From positions 1-28,522 of IMG/VR virus record IMGVR_UViG_3300032223_000997: DNA of 28,522 bases. One strand, 5' to 3'. The DNA is from a virus. Shown here piece after piece: positions 9,409 to 28,522 of this stretch; within the stretch, counting starts at the first letter, position 1; each line of letters begins with the position of its first letter. Made by a program: the position numbers and the translations under genes. The notes beneath the pieces are model-generated. The model had not been told where the DNA came from, made no database searches, and saw only the letters and a list, made by a program, of their open reading frames with translations.

Positions 9409-10112
9409 ATCTATCTGATGATGAATTTTTTCATTGTTTTGTAAAAAATAAAAACTGGAATCCTTTACAAAATCATGGTTATTTTGATGATAAATATATT
9501 CTTAAAGAAGAAGATAAAGATTTTCCTTATCAAATAATATCTTATTTAAATTTATTAGATAATATTAATATCAAAAATAAAAATATTTTAGATATTGGAT
9601 GTGGTTTTGGAAGAGGTACTTATATTTTAAAAACTTATTTAAATTGTAATATTACAGGAACAGATATTAATAATAATTTTATTCAACATGCTTCTAATAA
9701 ATATAAAAAAGTTACTTTTATTGTAGACGATTTTTTAAATACAAAATTAAAAGAAAATGAATATGATATTATTGTAAGTAATTGTTCTTCTCATTTTTTT
9801 TATGATAAAGATAATTTTTATTTAAATTTAATAAAAGTATTAAAAGATAATGGAATAGTTTTAATTACCGACATTTTTACTAAAGACAGCATTAATATAT
9901 TAGAAAATAAACTATCTAAAAATAATTTAAAAATTAAAGAGAAAATAGATATTTCTAACCAAACAATAAAATCAATGGAATATGACATAAATACTTTATT
10001 TGATAGATTTGATAAAGAAATAATTAATCATTTTTATGAAATACAAAAACGAAGGTTGTATTTATTTAATACAAATGTTAATAAACAATATAAATTAATA
10101 ATAGAGAAATGA
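9393..10112 (+). CDS. Class I SAM-dependent methyltransferase
   Basis: A 239-residue protein. The SAM-binding motif I is NILDIGCGFGRGT (64-76), followed by the acidic end of strand two (GTDIN, about 88-92), a later DDF (motif II region), and the strand 'YDIIVSNCSSHFFY' with 'LKDNGIVLITDIF' (motif III). This is the full Rossmann methyltransferase order of the Methyltransf_11/25 type. It overlaps the upstream gene by 16 bases and the next by four (ATGA), so it is probably co-expressed with the two oxygenases that follow. The substrate is unknown: a small molecule, a sugar or a modified fibre residue are all possible. DNA methylation is less likely because the NPPY and DPPY motifs of N6/N4 enzymes are absent. 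The region is extremely AT-rich. Confidence 0.8.
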   Translation: MSIQINLSDDEFFHCFVKNKNWNPLQNHGYFDDKYILKEEDKDFPYQIISYLNLLDNINIKNKNILDIGCGFGRGTYILKTYLNCNITGTDINNNFIQHASNKYKKVTFIVDDFLNTKLKENEYDIIVSNCSSHFFYDKDNFYLNLIKVLKDNGIVLITDIFTKDSINILENKLSKNNLKIKEKIDISNQTIKSMEYDINTLFDRFDKEIINHFYEIQKRRLYLFNTNVNKQYKLIIEK

Positions 10113-10690
10113 ATATTAAACCCGCTTTTATAACACCTTTATTTTGTTTTAATATAAATAATAAGGATTTAATTAAAAAATTAGAAGAAGAAGCTTATAC
10201 ACAAGAAAAAAATAAAAACGGTCGTCTTGTAAGTAATCAAGGTGGTTTTCAAAGTGAACATATTTATACAGATAATAAAGTTGTTAAATCTTTCTTTGAT
10301 GAAGTTATTCCTTGCGTTGAAAAAATAAAAAATAAAATAAGATTTGATTCAGATCTAAATTTAACGGGTCTTTGGTTTAATATAAATAGAAAAAATGATT
10401 TTAATTTAATGCATTGTCACCCAAAATCATTTTTAAGTGCTGCATTTTATATTAAATGTGGTGATAAAACAGGAGATATTGTTTTTGAAAATACAGATAA
10501 AAATACAGTTTTTTTTAATACTAATAATGATGATTTTAAAAATGATCCCTGTTATTCTAATTTTTTTACACATAAACCTTCTGTGGGTGATTTAATATTT
10601 TTTTATGGTTGGTTAAACCATAGAGTTAGATCAAATTTATCTAACGAAGATAGGATTAGTTTATCTTTTAACGTTACTACCTACGTATAA
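10109..10690 (+). CDS. 2OG-Fe(II) oxygenase 1 (2OG-FeII_Oxy_5 type)
   Basis: A 193-residue protein of the putative 2OG-Fe(II) oxygenase family PF13759. Features seen are GLWFNINRKNDFNLMHCHP (87-105) with His102 and His104, then 'SAAFYIKCGD.TGDIVFEN' (110-128), 'P.VGDLIFFYGWLNHRV' (157-173) with the second metal His171, and 'EDRISLSFN' (180-188) with Arg182 in the position that binds the 2-oxoglutarate carboxylate. The length and order fit the family. These enzymes use iron and 2-oxoglutarate to hydroxylate a substrate; for this phage type the substrate is unknown. It starts in an ATGA overlap with the methyltransferase and ends one base into the next oxygenase, so the three genes form one translation-coupled unit. 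Confidence 0.8.
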   Translation: MNIKPAFITPLFCFNINNKDLIKKLEEEAYTQEKNKNGRLVSNQGGFQSEHIYTDNKVVKSFFDEVIPCVEKIKNKIRFDSDLNLTGLWFNINRKNDFNLMHCHPKSFLSAAFYIKCGDKTGDIVFENTDKNTVFFNTNNDDFKNDPCYSNFFTHKPSVGDLIFFYGWLNHRVRSNLSNEDRISLSFNVTTYV

Positions 10691-11259
10691 TGAATATAAA
10701 ATTTCCAACTCTTATAGTAGATAATTTTTTTGATAATCCTAATGCAATAGTAGATTTATCAAAAACATTAGAATTTTTTGAAGCTAATAAAGACGAATAT
10801 TGGCCGGGTAAAAGAAGTCGCCCATTACATCAGATAAATGACAAATTATTTAATTTTATAATATCTAAAGTTTTAAGTTTTTATTATGATTTCCAATTAG
10901 AGACTGTTACTTGGGATAATACATATGTTGCCTTTCATAAAATGAATTCAAAAATTGATTTAAAAGACATACATAAAGATAATTCAGCCATATTAGCCGG
11001 GATTATTTATTTAAATAAAAATGGAACTATAGATAATGGAACCACTATATATAATGAAAATAAAGATAAAAAATTAGTTTTAAGTAATACTTATAATACC
11101 TTGTTATGTTATGATGCTAATCAATTACATGGTGCTACAAGCACTTTAATGTATGATAATGAAGAAAGATTAAGTATTGTTTTCTTTATAGATACTTTAG
11201 TTGCTTATAGACTTCCTATGGAAAGAAGTATAAAATACCTTGAAAATAATAAGTTTTAA
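10690..11259 (+). CDS. 2OG-Fe(II) oxygenase 2 (DUF6445-like)
   Basis: A 189-residue protein that I place among DUF6445-like dioxygenase-fold proteins. The N-terminal half contains 'FF.NP..I..LSK' and 'YWPGKRSRPLHQIN' (37-50). The core has an HxD pair in KDIHKDNSAILAGIIYLN (His95, Asp97), 'GTTIYNENKDKK' (117-128), then 'LLCYDANQLHGA' with the distal His147 and 'EERLSIVFF' with Arg160. So all ligands of a double-stranded beta-helix iron site appear present. The TAATG overlap ties it to oxygenase 1. It ends at a T-rich terminator-like hairpin, so it closes the first accessory block. The product or substrate is not known. Confidence 0.7.
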   Translation: MNIKFPTLIVDNFFDNPNAIVDLSKTLEFFEANKDEYWPGKRSRPLHQINDKLFNFIISKVLSFYYDFQLETVTWDNTYVAFHKMNSKIDLKDIHKDNSAILAGIIYLNKNGTIDNGTTIYNENKDKKLVLSNTYNTLLCYDANQLHGATSTLMYDNEERLSIVFFIDTLVAYRLPMERSIKYLENNKF

Positions 11260-12708: not shown

Positions 12709-13350
12709 ATGGTATTAAAAGAACATTATTGGTTTTTTACTAAAGCATTATCAGATAGTTTTTGTGATGAAATTATTAAATATGGTAATTCTCAACAAGA
12801 GCAATTAGCACTTACTGGCGGACAAACTTCAAAAGTTGAAACTGGTCAACCTTTAACTGATGAAGATATTAAAGATTTAAAAAAGAAAAGAGATTCAAAT
12901 ATTGTATGGTTAAATGATCGTTGGATTTATGATGAGATTCAACCTTATATCCATACAGCAAATAAAAATGCTGGCTGGAATTTTGATTGGGATTACTCTG
13001 AAAGCTGTCAATTTACAAAATATAAATTAAATCAATATTATGATTGGCATTGCGATAGTTGGAATGCTCCTTATGATAAACCAAATGACCCTAATATTCA
13101 TGGTAAAATAAGAAAACTTTCAGTTACATGTTCTTTATCGGCTCCAGAAGATTATGAAGGAGGAGAATTAGAATTTGATTTTAGAAATATGGATCCAGAT
13201 AAGCCACAAAACGTTCACAAGTGTAATGATATAAAACCAAGAGGTTCTATTGTAGTATTTCCATCTCATGTTTGGCATAGAGTTTTACCTGTTACAAAAG
13301 GAACAAGATATTCATTAGTTATTTGGAATATTGGATATCCATTTAAATAA
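12709..13350 (+). CDS. 2OG-Fe(II) oxygenase 3 (PKHD/prolyl hydroxylase type)
   Basis: A 213-residue protein with a complete dioxygenase site: 'NQYYDWHCDSW' (108-118) with His114 and Asp116, 'SAPEDYEGGELEF' (144-156), 'KPRGSIVVFPSHVWHRVLPV' (176-195) with His190, and 'GTRYSLVIW' with Arg200 to bind 2-oxoglutarate. This is the order of PKHD-type hydroxylases, related to prolyl 4-hydroxylase, and the family is known in cyanophages and marine phages. The reaction is hydroxylation of a peptide or small substrate, coupled to decarboxylation of 2-oxoglutarate. It lies after a Gly/Pro-rich adhesin and starts a block of three oxygenases with no gap (next ATG directly after the stop). It has its own promoter candidate. 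Confidence 0.85.
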   Translation: MVLKEHYWFFTKALSDSFCDEIIKYGNSQQEQLALTGGQTSKVETGQPLTDEDIKDLKKKRDSNIVWLNDRWIYDEIQPYIHTANKNAGWNFDWDYSESCQFTKYKLNQYYDWHCDSWNAPYDKPNDPNIHGKIRKLSVTCSLSAPEDYEGGELEFDFRNMDPDKPQNVHKCNDIKPRGSIVVFPSHVWHRVLPVTKGTRYSLVIWNIGYPFK

Positions 13351-13827
13351 ATGATTTTAGAAGAATATCTAATAAAAGATATTTCTGTTATTACTTCTTT
13401 AAAAGAAGACATTAAAAATAATTTAGACACGTCTATGAAGAATACTACAAACGTAAAAGGTAGTATGACAAATTATAAACATTTTATAGGTAGAAAAACT
13501 TTTGAACCTATAAAAAAATTATTAAACAAATTTGCTATATACGAAGCTTGGGGAAATGTTTTAAAAAAAGGAGAACATGTCAAAGAACATCATCATATAT
13601 CTAATGAAATTAATAATTTTAAAATAAATATTAGTGGTATATTATATTTAACAGATATAAAACCAGGTACTTATTTTAAAGAATTTAATAAAACTATTGA
13701 TCCTGAAATAGGTAAAATTATTATTTTTAATAATACTTATTTACATTCTGTAGATAAATGTGATAGTAATGAAGAAAGAATTACGTTAGCTTTTAATGGA
13801 AGAATAAAAGAAAAATATGAGTTTTAA
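13351..13827 (+). CDS. 2OG-Fe(II) oxygenase 4, short form
   Basis: A 158-residue protein, short for the fold. The core 'YEAWGNVLKKGEHVKEHHH' (64-82) has His80-82, followed by 'ISGILYLTDIKPGTYFKEF' (94-112), 'IGKIIIFNNTYLHSV' with His132, and 'NEERITLAFN' with Arg143. The layout follows the 2OG-FeII_Oxy_5 type seen in oxygenase 1, but the N-terminal part is reduced. Which of the three neighbouring His residues binds iron, or whether Glu79 takes part, cannot be decided from sequence. It overlaps the next gene by 11 bases. It could be active or a degenerate copy; the retained His and Arg favour activity. Confidence 0.68.
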   Translation: MILEEYLIKDISVITSLKEDIKNNLDTSMKNTTNVKGSMTNYKHFIGRKTFEPIKKLLNKFAIYEAWGNVLKKGEHVKEHHHISNEINNFKINISGILYLTDIKPGTYFKEFNKTIDPEIGKIIIFNNTYLHSVDKCDSNEERITLAFNGRIKEKYEF

Positions 13828-14467
13828 ACAAAATAAATATACAATTATTAAGCAAGCTATATCAAAAGATTTGGCTGAATTTTGTTATGGTTATTTTTTA
13901 TTAAAAAGAAAAGTTGCCAGAACTTTATTTGATGAAAGAATAATTTCACCATTTAATTCAATGTGGGGCGTATGGAATGATCAACAAGTACCTGATACTT
14001 ATTCTCATTATGCGGATGCGGTAATGGAAACATTACTTGTAAAAACACATACTATTATGGAAGAAAAAACAGAATTAAAATTAATACCTAATTATTCATA
14101 TGCAAGAATTTATAAAAAAGGAGATATATTACATCGCCATAAAGATAGATTTAGTTGTGAAATATCTACAACATTAAATTTAGGTGGAGATCCATGGCCA
14201 ATATTTATTGAACCAGATGAAACTAAAGGAAAATATGTAGATAATAATTATGTAAGTGACAATACAGTTGGAATTAGAGTAGATTTAGAACCGGGCGATA
14301 TGTTAGTCTACAGAGGAAATATTTTAGAACATTGGAGAGATGCATTTGAAGGTGAGAATTGTGGTCAAGTATTTTTGCATTATAATGATGTAAATACACC
14401 TGGTGCCAAAGAAAATATGTATGATCGTAGACCTCATTTAGGACTTCCAGCAAACTTCAAAAGATGA
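13817..14467 (+). CDS. 2OG-Fe(II) oxygenase 5
   Basis: A 216-residue protein. The iron site is read in 'YARIYKKGDILHRHKDRFSC' (95-114), with His108 and Asp110, and in 'LEPGDMLVYRGNILEHWRDA' (157-176), with His172. Between these lies 'EISTTLNLGGDPWPIFIEP' (115-133), as in prolyl-4-hydroxylase-like phage proteins. The last strand reads QVFLHYN, so the usual Arg that binds the far carboxylate of 2-oxoglutarate is not at that place; another residue may replace it, as known for some members of the superfamily. The C-terminus ends in a basic 'DRRPHLGLPANFKR'. It is the last of the oxygenases and is followed by an 11-pair hairpin at the start of the nozzle gene. Confidence 0.75.
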   Translation: MSFKQNKYTIIKQAISKDLAEFCYGYFLLKRKVARTLFDERIISPFNSMWGVWNDQQVPDTYSHYADAVMETLLVKTHTIMEEKTELKLIPNYSYARIYKKGDILHRHKDRFSCEISTTLNLGGDPWPIFIEPDETKGKYVDNNYVSDNTVGIRVDLEPGDMLVYRGNILEHWRDAFEGENCGQVFLHYNDVNTPGAKENMYDRRPHLGLPANFKR

Positions 14468-27601: not shown

Positions 27602-28052
27602 AATATCTTCTTGCAATAGTTTCAAAAAGTTGTATGACGCGTTTATGGATAATAAATTATTAGTGCATAAACATTTAATAGTCCGAGCAGAAGTTTACCG
27701 TCCTCCTATGGACGAGGAGTTTCTTAGGCGTTGGTTAAACAAATTTATAGAAGAAATTGGAATGAAAGTAATGATGGGTCCTTATGTTAAGTATTCTAAT
27801 ATGGTTGGCAATCGTGGTATTACTGGAGCTGCTATTATTGAAACATCTCATATAGTGATGCATATTTGGGATGAAGTACATCCAGCATTAATGCAATTTG
27901 ATGTGTATTCTTGTGGAGAATTTGATCCTCAAACAATATGTAATAAAATAGATAAAGACTTTACAGTTCATAAAATAGAATACAAATTCCTTGATAGAGA
28001 ACATGATTTAAAAGAATTACATGTAATTAACTTCTTGAAATCAGAAAATTAA
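27585..28052 (+). CDS. speD: SpeD-like pyruvoyl-dependent decarboxylase
   Basis: A 155-residue protein from ATG 27585, overlapping the lysozyme by 17 bases. ATG 27645 (135 residues) is an alternative start closer to the usual SpeD beginning (HKHLIVRAEVYRPP). The core 'ETSHIVMHIWDE' (86-97) has the Ser that would become the pyruvoyl group (Ser88) and His93 five residues on, as in S-adenosylmethionine decarboxylase; Cys110 lies in FDVYSCGEFDP. The classical ESH is TSH here, and the gap from Ser to Cys is two residues longer than usual (22 against 20). It may make decarboxylated SAM for spermidine synthesis, or act on another amine acid as some SpeD-like proteins do. It is an auxiliary metabolic gene. 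Confidence 0.82.
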   Translation: MPILIKISSCNSFKKLYDAFMDNKLLVHKHLIVRAEVYRPPMDEEFLRRWLNKFIEEIGMKVMMGPYVKYSNMVGNRGITGAAIIETSHIVMHIWDEVHPALMQFDVYSCGEFDPQTICNKIDKDFTVHKIEYKFLDREHDLKELHVINFLKSEN

Positions 28053-28062
28053 TCACTATATA
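28035..28062 (+). promoter_or_regulatory. Promoter region before hsp20 (sigma-70-like, overlapping AATCACTATA)
   Basis: TTGAAA (28035-28040, five of six) is followed after 16 bases by TATATA (28057-28062). The same place holds the AATCACTATA motif (28051-28060). Either a host or a phage RNA polymerase would start around 28061-28070, right before two hairpins that form the 5' leader of hsp20. Confidence 0.45.
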
Positions 28063-28068
28063 TATTCC

Positions 28069-28114
28069 AGGTTGCATCATGTGGATGGACCTATTAACTT
28101 GCTTAACAAAGGAG
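28069..28114 (+). promoter_or_regulatory. ROSE-like RNA thermometer candidate in the hsp20 leader
   Basis: Two hairpins fill the leader. The first pairs 28069-28078 (A, GGTT, bulged G, CATC) with 28084-28092 (GATG, GACC, T) around ATGTG. The second pairs C28098-G28114, U28099-A28113, U28100-G28112, C28102-G28111 and U28103-A28110, with G28101 bulged, around a six-base loop. In the second, UUGCU faces AGGA of the Shine-Dalgarno AAAGGAG. This is the conserved pairing, bulged G included, of ROSE thermometers that control bacterial hsp20/ibpA genes. Folding energy was not computed. Confidence 0.55.
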
Positions 28115-28120
28115 ATAATA

Positions 28121-28522
28121 ATGACTTTCAATTCATTATTCCCAAATAACGGTTTGATTAAAATGGATGAAATCCATAATCATTTCGTAAAACAAACTGA
28201 AGATATATTTGATAATATATTTGATAGTTGGTCTAAAATACCTTCATTCCCTTTTTACAATTTGGTAAAATACGGAAAAGGTAAATATGGTCTAGAAATA
28301 GGACTTGCTGGATACAATAAAGAAAACGTTCTTGTAGAAATAAAAGACGGTATTTTAACTGTTGAAGGTAAAGTTCAAGATAAAAATGTAGATTATATTC
28401 AAAAAGGATTAGCACTTAGAAAATTCGTTAAACAATTTGAGTTAGCATCTGACGTAATAGTAGATGAAGCTGAAATGGTTGATGGACTTTTAAAAATAAA
28501 ATTAGGTGTTAAAAATCCTGAA
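28121..28522 (+). CDS. Small heat shock protein Hsp20, 3' partial
   Basis: 134 residues are seen before the window ends, so the end of the protein is missing. The ATG at 28121 has the Shine-Dalgarno AAAGGAG six bases upstream. A longer in-frame start at 28079 would add 14 residues read from the leader hairpins and is rejected. The alpha-crystallin domain is clear: YGLEIGLAGYNKENVLVEIK, then GILTVEGKV (strands around 66-95) and 'GLALRKFVKQFELASDVIVD' with 'AEMVDGLLKIKLG', matching the IbpA/Hsp20 'GI..R.F...F.L...V.V..A...(D/N)GLL.I.L'. It is an ATP-independent holdase. Hsp20 is common in cyanophages and T4-like marine phages. It may aid folding of virion proteins in late infection. Confidence 0.93.
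   Translation, partial: MTFNSLFPNNGLIKMDEIHNHFVKQTEDIFDNIFDSWSKIPSFPFYNLVKYGKGKYGLEIGLAGYNKENVLVEIKDGILTVEGKVQDKNVDYIQKGLALRKFVKQFELASDVIVDEAEMVDGLLKIKLGVKNPE

Follow-up and report, generated by a model that had tools for sequence, protein, structure and literature searches.

The window, i.e. the whole stretch of 28,522 nucleotides that was analysed (IMG/VR record IMGVR_UViG_3300032223_000997, an aquatic bacterial virus), ends in a gene for a small heat-shock protein (hsp20). The predicted product is an Hsp20/alpha-crystallin protein (Pfam HSP20, E 5e-10; PHROG 432 Hsp20, E 6.7e-27). An S-adenosylmethionine decarboxylase gene (27663-28049; Pfam AdoMet_dc, E 3e-17) lies just 5' of the hsp20 leader, and the remaining window genes code for proteins of the phage head and tail. 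Phage 023Pt_psg01 and pelagiphage HTVC027P have major capsid proteins 77% identical to that of the window. Several adjacent ORFs at 10109-11259 and 12709-14467 resemble 2OG-Fe(II) oxygenases by eye, which is unusually many for one phage. An in-frame ATG at 28079 was ruled out as the start of hsp20, since one-base differences in relatives between 28079 and 28121 break the frame. The 52 nt before the AUG at 28121 form two tandem hairpins (element 28069-28120, ending just before the AUG), and the features of this region are as follows:

28034-28062, plus strand: promoter candidate (CTTGAAA at 28034-28040, TATATA at 28057-28062), conserved in the clade
28069-28092, plus strand: hairpin 1 of the leader RNA, AGGUUGCAUCAUGUGGAUGGACCU; stable, with G28074 bulged
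28092-28120, plus strand (as hsp20): hairpin 2, the proposed thermosensing hairpin, which sequesters the Shine-Dalgarno and extends to the AUG
28098-28103, plus strand: anti-Shine-Dalgarno CUUGCU with G28101 bulged; the ROSE U(U/C)GCU motif with its flanking C
28110-28114, plus strand: Shine-Dalgarno AGGAG, read directly, 6 nt 5' of the AUG
28121-28522, plus strand: hsp20, small heat-shock protein of the IbpA type; the last gene in the window, cut by the contig end

An anti-Shine-Dalgarno UUGCU with a bulged G and a flanking C-G pair is the hallmark of ROSE elements, known from bacterial hsp20/ibpA genes. A previous sequence-only reading had proposed such a pairing for the window leader, and direct inspection of the letters bears out both the pairing and its position: UUGCU (28099-28103) pairs with AGGA (28110-28113) through U28099-A28113, U28100.G28112, C28102-G28111 and U28103-A28110, G28101 is bulged, and the flanking pair is C28098-G28114. 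The lower stem of hairpin 2 (UAUUA 28092-28096 / UAAUA 28116-28120) abuts the start codon. The features by which ROSE elements are recognised in the literature are present, comprising U(U/C)GCU paired to the Shine-Dalgarno, a bulged G opposite the latter, a flanking G-C pair, and two to four hairpins with the Shine-Dalgarno in the last one and a more stable hairpin on the 5' side; a small heat-shock gene downstream, here identified by its Pfam HSP20 match, is the usual setting. The more stable upstream hairpin that the same reading had described is found at 28069-28092 and is supported by covariation in relatives.

Single-sequence nearest-neighbour folding of the window leader does not stand out (z = -0.55), and comparison with relatives was therefore needed. 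Leaders of close relatives (14 sequences, among them L054 and L056 from the RNA-motif scan) were aligned (alignment A3). Covariation was counted only on this close clade and on sequence-anchored hairpins, because the hairpin arms came out of register when diverged leaders were aligned with MAFFT (A2, A5, A6); the hsp20 alignment A1 was too diverged as a query for searching. Under the two-hairpin structure 99.1% of the cells of A3 are paired, with both-side changes in 6 of 18 pairs, and the covariation score of 0.279 was matched by 0 of 500 shuffles; slid structures score 0.02-0.08. Hairpin 1 is 100% paired with both-side changes at 5 of 8 pairs, and hairpin 2 is paired in 98.5% of cells with an outermost pair that covaries (U-A/A-U). 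The CUUGCU is invariant in the window's clade, as are most of the hairpin 2 core pairs, which are hence uninformative by covariation. RNAalifold, unaided, predicted the same two hairpins. Alignment of the leaders of related phages, which the sequence-only reading had named as a check, thus shows the anti-Shine-Dalgarno pairing kept, with compensatory changes around it.

For the window leader a weak change with temperature is calculated, which speaks against a thermometer (Shine-Dalgarno unpaired 0.25 at 5 C and 0.47 at 50 C), but by a nearest-neighbour method that treats bulged-G and non-canonical ROSE cores poorly; for the close relative L013 a strong opening is calculated, from 0.01 (4 C) to 0.59 (50 C). 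Hairpin 2 taken alone is calculated to be half-open at a lower temperature in the phages (median 62 C) than in E. coli ibpA (74 C) and in Pseudomonas-type loci (66-76 C), and three alpha-proteobacterial genomes that are AT-rich give 60-62 C; the absolute values are not physiological, and it is their order that, in this calculation, would suit cooler hosts.

The upstream bulged-G hairpin is present in 166 of 166 phage leaders and scores at least 8 in 98.8% of them versus 4% of shuffles. Its usual form is a stem ending in Y, the bulged G, CC, a tetraloop (e.g. UUCG, GAAA), GG, and a stem resuming with R. With the hairpin anchored by GCC..GG alone, and with pairing not demanded, the outer pairs 2-5 form in 81, 91, 97 and 71% of 89 leaders (shuffled means 60, 61, 53 and 39%). 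The same bulged-G hairpin occurs in the E. coli leaders (L409) of ibpA (GGACGC-G-CC-UGAU-GG-GUGUUC) and ibpB (AUGCUC-G-CC-GUCA-GG-GAGCAU), and the bulged G (Y-G-CC...GG-R) is found also in Pseudomonas-type loci (L439-L446), including L439-L441, which match ROSE_3. As this hairpin is common to phage, E. coli and Pseudomonas-type leaders, it is probably an ancient part of ROSE. Its bulged G makes no contact with the Shine-Dalgarno; in excerpts of the study of Pseudomonas ibpA (PMC3669281), hairpin I is described as conserved and its function as unclear, and the bulge is not mentioned there. In one locus (L032:2917-2970) hairpin 1 (UAGGUUGCUUAACCAAGGACCUA) itself holds a UUGCU/AAGGA core, which gives two ROSE cores in tandem.

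The occurrence of the element was surveyed on hsp20 genes gathered by protein similarity alone, with a strict motif defined as U[UC]GCU, 2-10 nt, and AGGA at 3-14 nt before the start codon. Of the 204 non-redundant phage hsp20 ORFs, 191 have this motif in front, and it is nearly absent elsewhere (3 of 585 other ORFs of the same loci; 6 of 3820 shuffled leaders). The core is UUGCU in 87 and UCGCU in 104 leaders, and the flanking pair forms in 191 of 191 (C-G 156, U-G 33, A-U 2). In the converse search, for which the bare RNA motif was run over 2.9 million viral contigs, the UUGCU form lay directly before hsp20 in 106 among the 120 matches listed, and the UCGCU form in 100 among the 121 listed; a scrambled motif gave 28 matches in all, 0 of 28 before hsp20. 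Chance occurrence of the motif is ruled out by the protein-selected leaders, the other ORFs, the shuffles and the scrambled-motif scan taken together. The ROSE-like element is not peculiar to the window phage: it is present on almost all sampled phage hsp20 genes, so that the finding is broader than first stated and the window element is one of a large set.

The phages with the element comprise pelagiphages, cyanophages, methylophages and rhizobial jumbo phages, and all named phages whose leaders were read carry it, among them Mosig, HTVC008M, HTVC115P, HTVC103P, S-SCSM1, S-T4, Melnitz, Phosso, the cyanophages P-SSM2 and P-SSM4, S-CRM01 and C48C1, with a shortened form in Atu_ph07. One group of phages (L382-L387, L378, L407) has a variant core, AACGCUUAACGGAGG, before hsp20 instead of UYGCU..AGGAG.

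A covariance model (R1) was built from 11 other phage leaders, one of which (L021) belongs to the wider clade of the window. It detects the window leader (28077-28117; 22.5 bits, E 2.6e-4) and, weakly, the E. coli ibpB leader (E 0.04). Of the Rfam ROSE models, also named as a check by the earlier reading, ROSE_3 (RF02523) aligns over its full length at 28066-28126, but with 16.6 bits (E 0.009 within the record) against a gathering score of 43 bits, and the window leader is not a member of ROSE_3 as now modelled. In other phages, too, ROSE_3 matches at this position without reaching its threshold (best 39.9 bits, E 5e-5). ROSE_2 (RF01832; gathering score 65 bits) has no match on the strand of the window hsp20 leader and a chance antisense match of 12.5 bits, with 100.4 bits for the E. 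coli ibpA control. Neither the window nor the scanned phage loci gave a match at threshold to any Rfam ROSE family, and this may explain why the phage leaders have been overlooked. Other Rfam matches in the leader (mgtC leader, microRNAs, CRISPR repeat) are weak and mostly antisense and were dismissed. A glutamine riboswitch (RF01739, 44.6 bits, above threshold) is predicted on another viral contig (L077:3275-3324).

In bacteria, R1 matches leaders of chromosomal hsp20 genes in five small alpha-proteobacterial genomes (L413-L417; 1.1-1.6 Mb) among 240 of the class, and the element of L413 (AACTTGCTTAACAAAGGAG) is near-identical to that of the window; transfer of the element between hosts and phages is therefore likely. 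The scan of genome contigs yielded one distant bacterial relative, a Sphingomonas MAG (L410), the leader of which has a variant motif only (CGCUCAG..UUUGGAGG).

Other genes were also found behind a ROSE-type element, in contigs whose viral assignment is that of IMG/VR. Hsp70 (dnaK) genes follow the element in five viral contigs (L091, L111, L113, L149, L519); hsp20 follows the Hsp70 gene where the fragment is long enough, with an R1 match of its own in L091 and L111. A Cpn10/GroES gene (L159:3855-4145) and an AhpC gene (L452:1910-2470) are similarly placed. Small ORFs of 69-97 aa lie directly after the element in L053, L101, L470, L482, L496, L510, L524, L554, L560, L565 and L571; they are phasin-like by eye, with no Pfam match where tested, and those of L470, L482 and L571 lie 13-20 nt before hsp20.

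The promoter candidate that the sequence-only reading had placed before the hairpins proved to be conserved: in the window's clade, 17 of 19 leaders have a CTTGAMA-N16-18-TATAAT-like pair immediately 5' of the element, versus 2% of shuffles, and an RNA made from it would begin with hairpin 1. The candidate agrees with the sigma-70 consensus and, though not as closely, with the heat-shock (RpoH) consensus of alpha-proteobacteria, so that by its letters it could be read by RpoH or by the housekeeping sigma factor. The alpha-proteobacterial relative L413 has an RpoH-type promoter (CTTGAAA..CCCATAT) before its near-identical element. In the Mosig-like group 67% of leaders have such a promoter pair, and 98% have TATAAATA, which is the T4 late-promoter consensus, within one mismatch (29% of shuffles); cyanophages have TATAAATA in 71% (13% of shuffles). 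One RNA element is therefore found behind different promoter types.

The nearest known systems are the short ROSE-like thermometers of Pseudomonas ibpA (Krajewski 2013, PMC3669281), for which the study describes two hairpins with the Shine-Dalgarno in the second one, established by probing and reporters, and a hairpin II that melts while hairpin I does not. The phage elements share with Pseudomonas ibpA/ROSE_3 the two hairpins, the Shine-Dalgarno in the second, U(U/C)GCU with a bulged G, the flanking C-G pair and the sHsp gene downstream; they differ in being phage-borne and AT-rich, in their shorter loops, in the window's score of 16.6 of 43 bits, and in the late-promoter-like TATAAATA just upstream in T4-like phages. 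The ROSE elements of E. coli ibpA/ibpB (RF01832 ROSE_2) are alike in their UCGCU/AGGAG core and upstream bulged-G hairpin, and differ in their longer leaders and in the 100 bits that ibpA scores with ROSE_2. ABC-transporter leaders are a 2024 addition to what is known (PMC11342760). RNA thermometers have been described in phages for lambda cIII, SP-beta blyA (fourU) and a gut phage sigma-70 gene (fourU) (PMC4166951, PMC11182007). The three phage examples are likewise temperature-responsive leaders in phage genomes; however, they are single cases with other RNA classes and genes, do not form a family distributed among phages, and none is a ROSE element. No description of a phage ROSE element was found in the open-access papers searched, in agreement with the sequence-only reading, which knew of none firmly described; the leaders go unmentioned in a 2013 study of cyanophage sHSPs.

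Taken together, we consider the window hsp20 leader very probably a two-hairpin ROSE-like RNA thermometer that acts by translational control. This reading is the best supported because the architecture equals that of Pseudomonas ibpA, which was probed and tested with reporters (PMC3669281). Transcription probably begins directly at hairpin 1 and from a promoter of the host type. At the normal temperature of the host, the Shine-Dalgarno would be held in hairpin 2, imperfectly paired with CUUGCU (bulged G, U.G pair), and little Hsp20 would be made; upon warming, hairpin 2 would loosen while hairpin 1 stays folded, and the ribosome could bind. The phage chaperone would then be made as proteins begin to misfold, presumably to the benefit of the phage.

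Control by chaperone occupancy is a plausible main rival, or partner, of the thermometer, and we regard it as possible with some doubt. Instead of temperature, or besides it, the leader would sense chaperone demand: free Hsp20, of the phage or as the host's IbpA, would bind the leader and repress, and misfolded proteins would titrate Hsp20 and so permit translation. E. coli IbpA represses its own translation via the 5' UTR, for which R93 and an aromatic residue at position 34 are needed (PMC10474464); among the aligned phage Hsp20s, 306 of 311 keep Arg at the R93 position and 313 of 313 are aromatic at that of Y34, although these residues may be kept for chaperone structure, and at the K98 position, where E. 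coli IbpA needs a charge, S, Q, A or T predominate in phages. Hairpin 1, a second hairpin with a bulged G, is conserved without touching the Shine-Dalgarno, as if it were a binding site. Such control is compatible with a thermometer.

Very unlikely is a reading of the element as a relic that came along with hsp20 from a host, with no regulatory role in the phage and with hairpin 1 merely protecting the 5' end of the mRNA. Transfer from hosts is made plausible by the near-identical elements on chromosomal hsp20 genes of small alpha-proteobacterial genomes, but the element is kept, with compensatory changes, across very diverged phage Hsp20s (most 31-43% identical to that of Mosig), and it is found with different promoters and also on other chaperone genes. 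An operator bound by a translational repressor of the phage (RegA, for example), suggested by the adjacency of hsp20 and regA in some cyanophages, is highly improbable, as the same element occurs with other neighbours (pelagiphages, rhizobial jumbo phages, the window phage) and in bacterial genomes, and as the pairing is conserved and not a linear site.

Beyond the thermometer of the single leader, we tentatively propose that many aquatic phages possess a small regulon of chaperone genes under ROSE control (hsp20, joined in some contigs by dnaK, groES, a peroxiredoxin gene and a small ORF), often behind late-promoter-like sequences, in which the RNA would read temperature and/or chaperone occupancy and set the folding capacity during infection; the bulged-G hairpin 1, shared with bacterial ROSE, might be a second module, e.g. 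a site for sHsp binding.

ROSE thermometers have so far been described as bacterial, and they are now found on nearly every phage hsp20 gene sampled, those of well-studied cyanophages among them. The implication is that lytic phages have kept or acquired the heat control of their hosts for a chaperone of their own. Temperature sensing by phages during infection becomes directly testable in cultured phage-host pairs, and hundreds of natural variants are at hand for studying how RNA thermometers are tuned to cool-water hosts.
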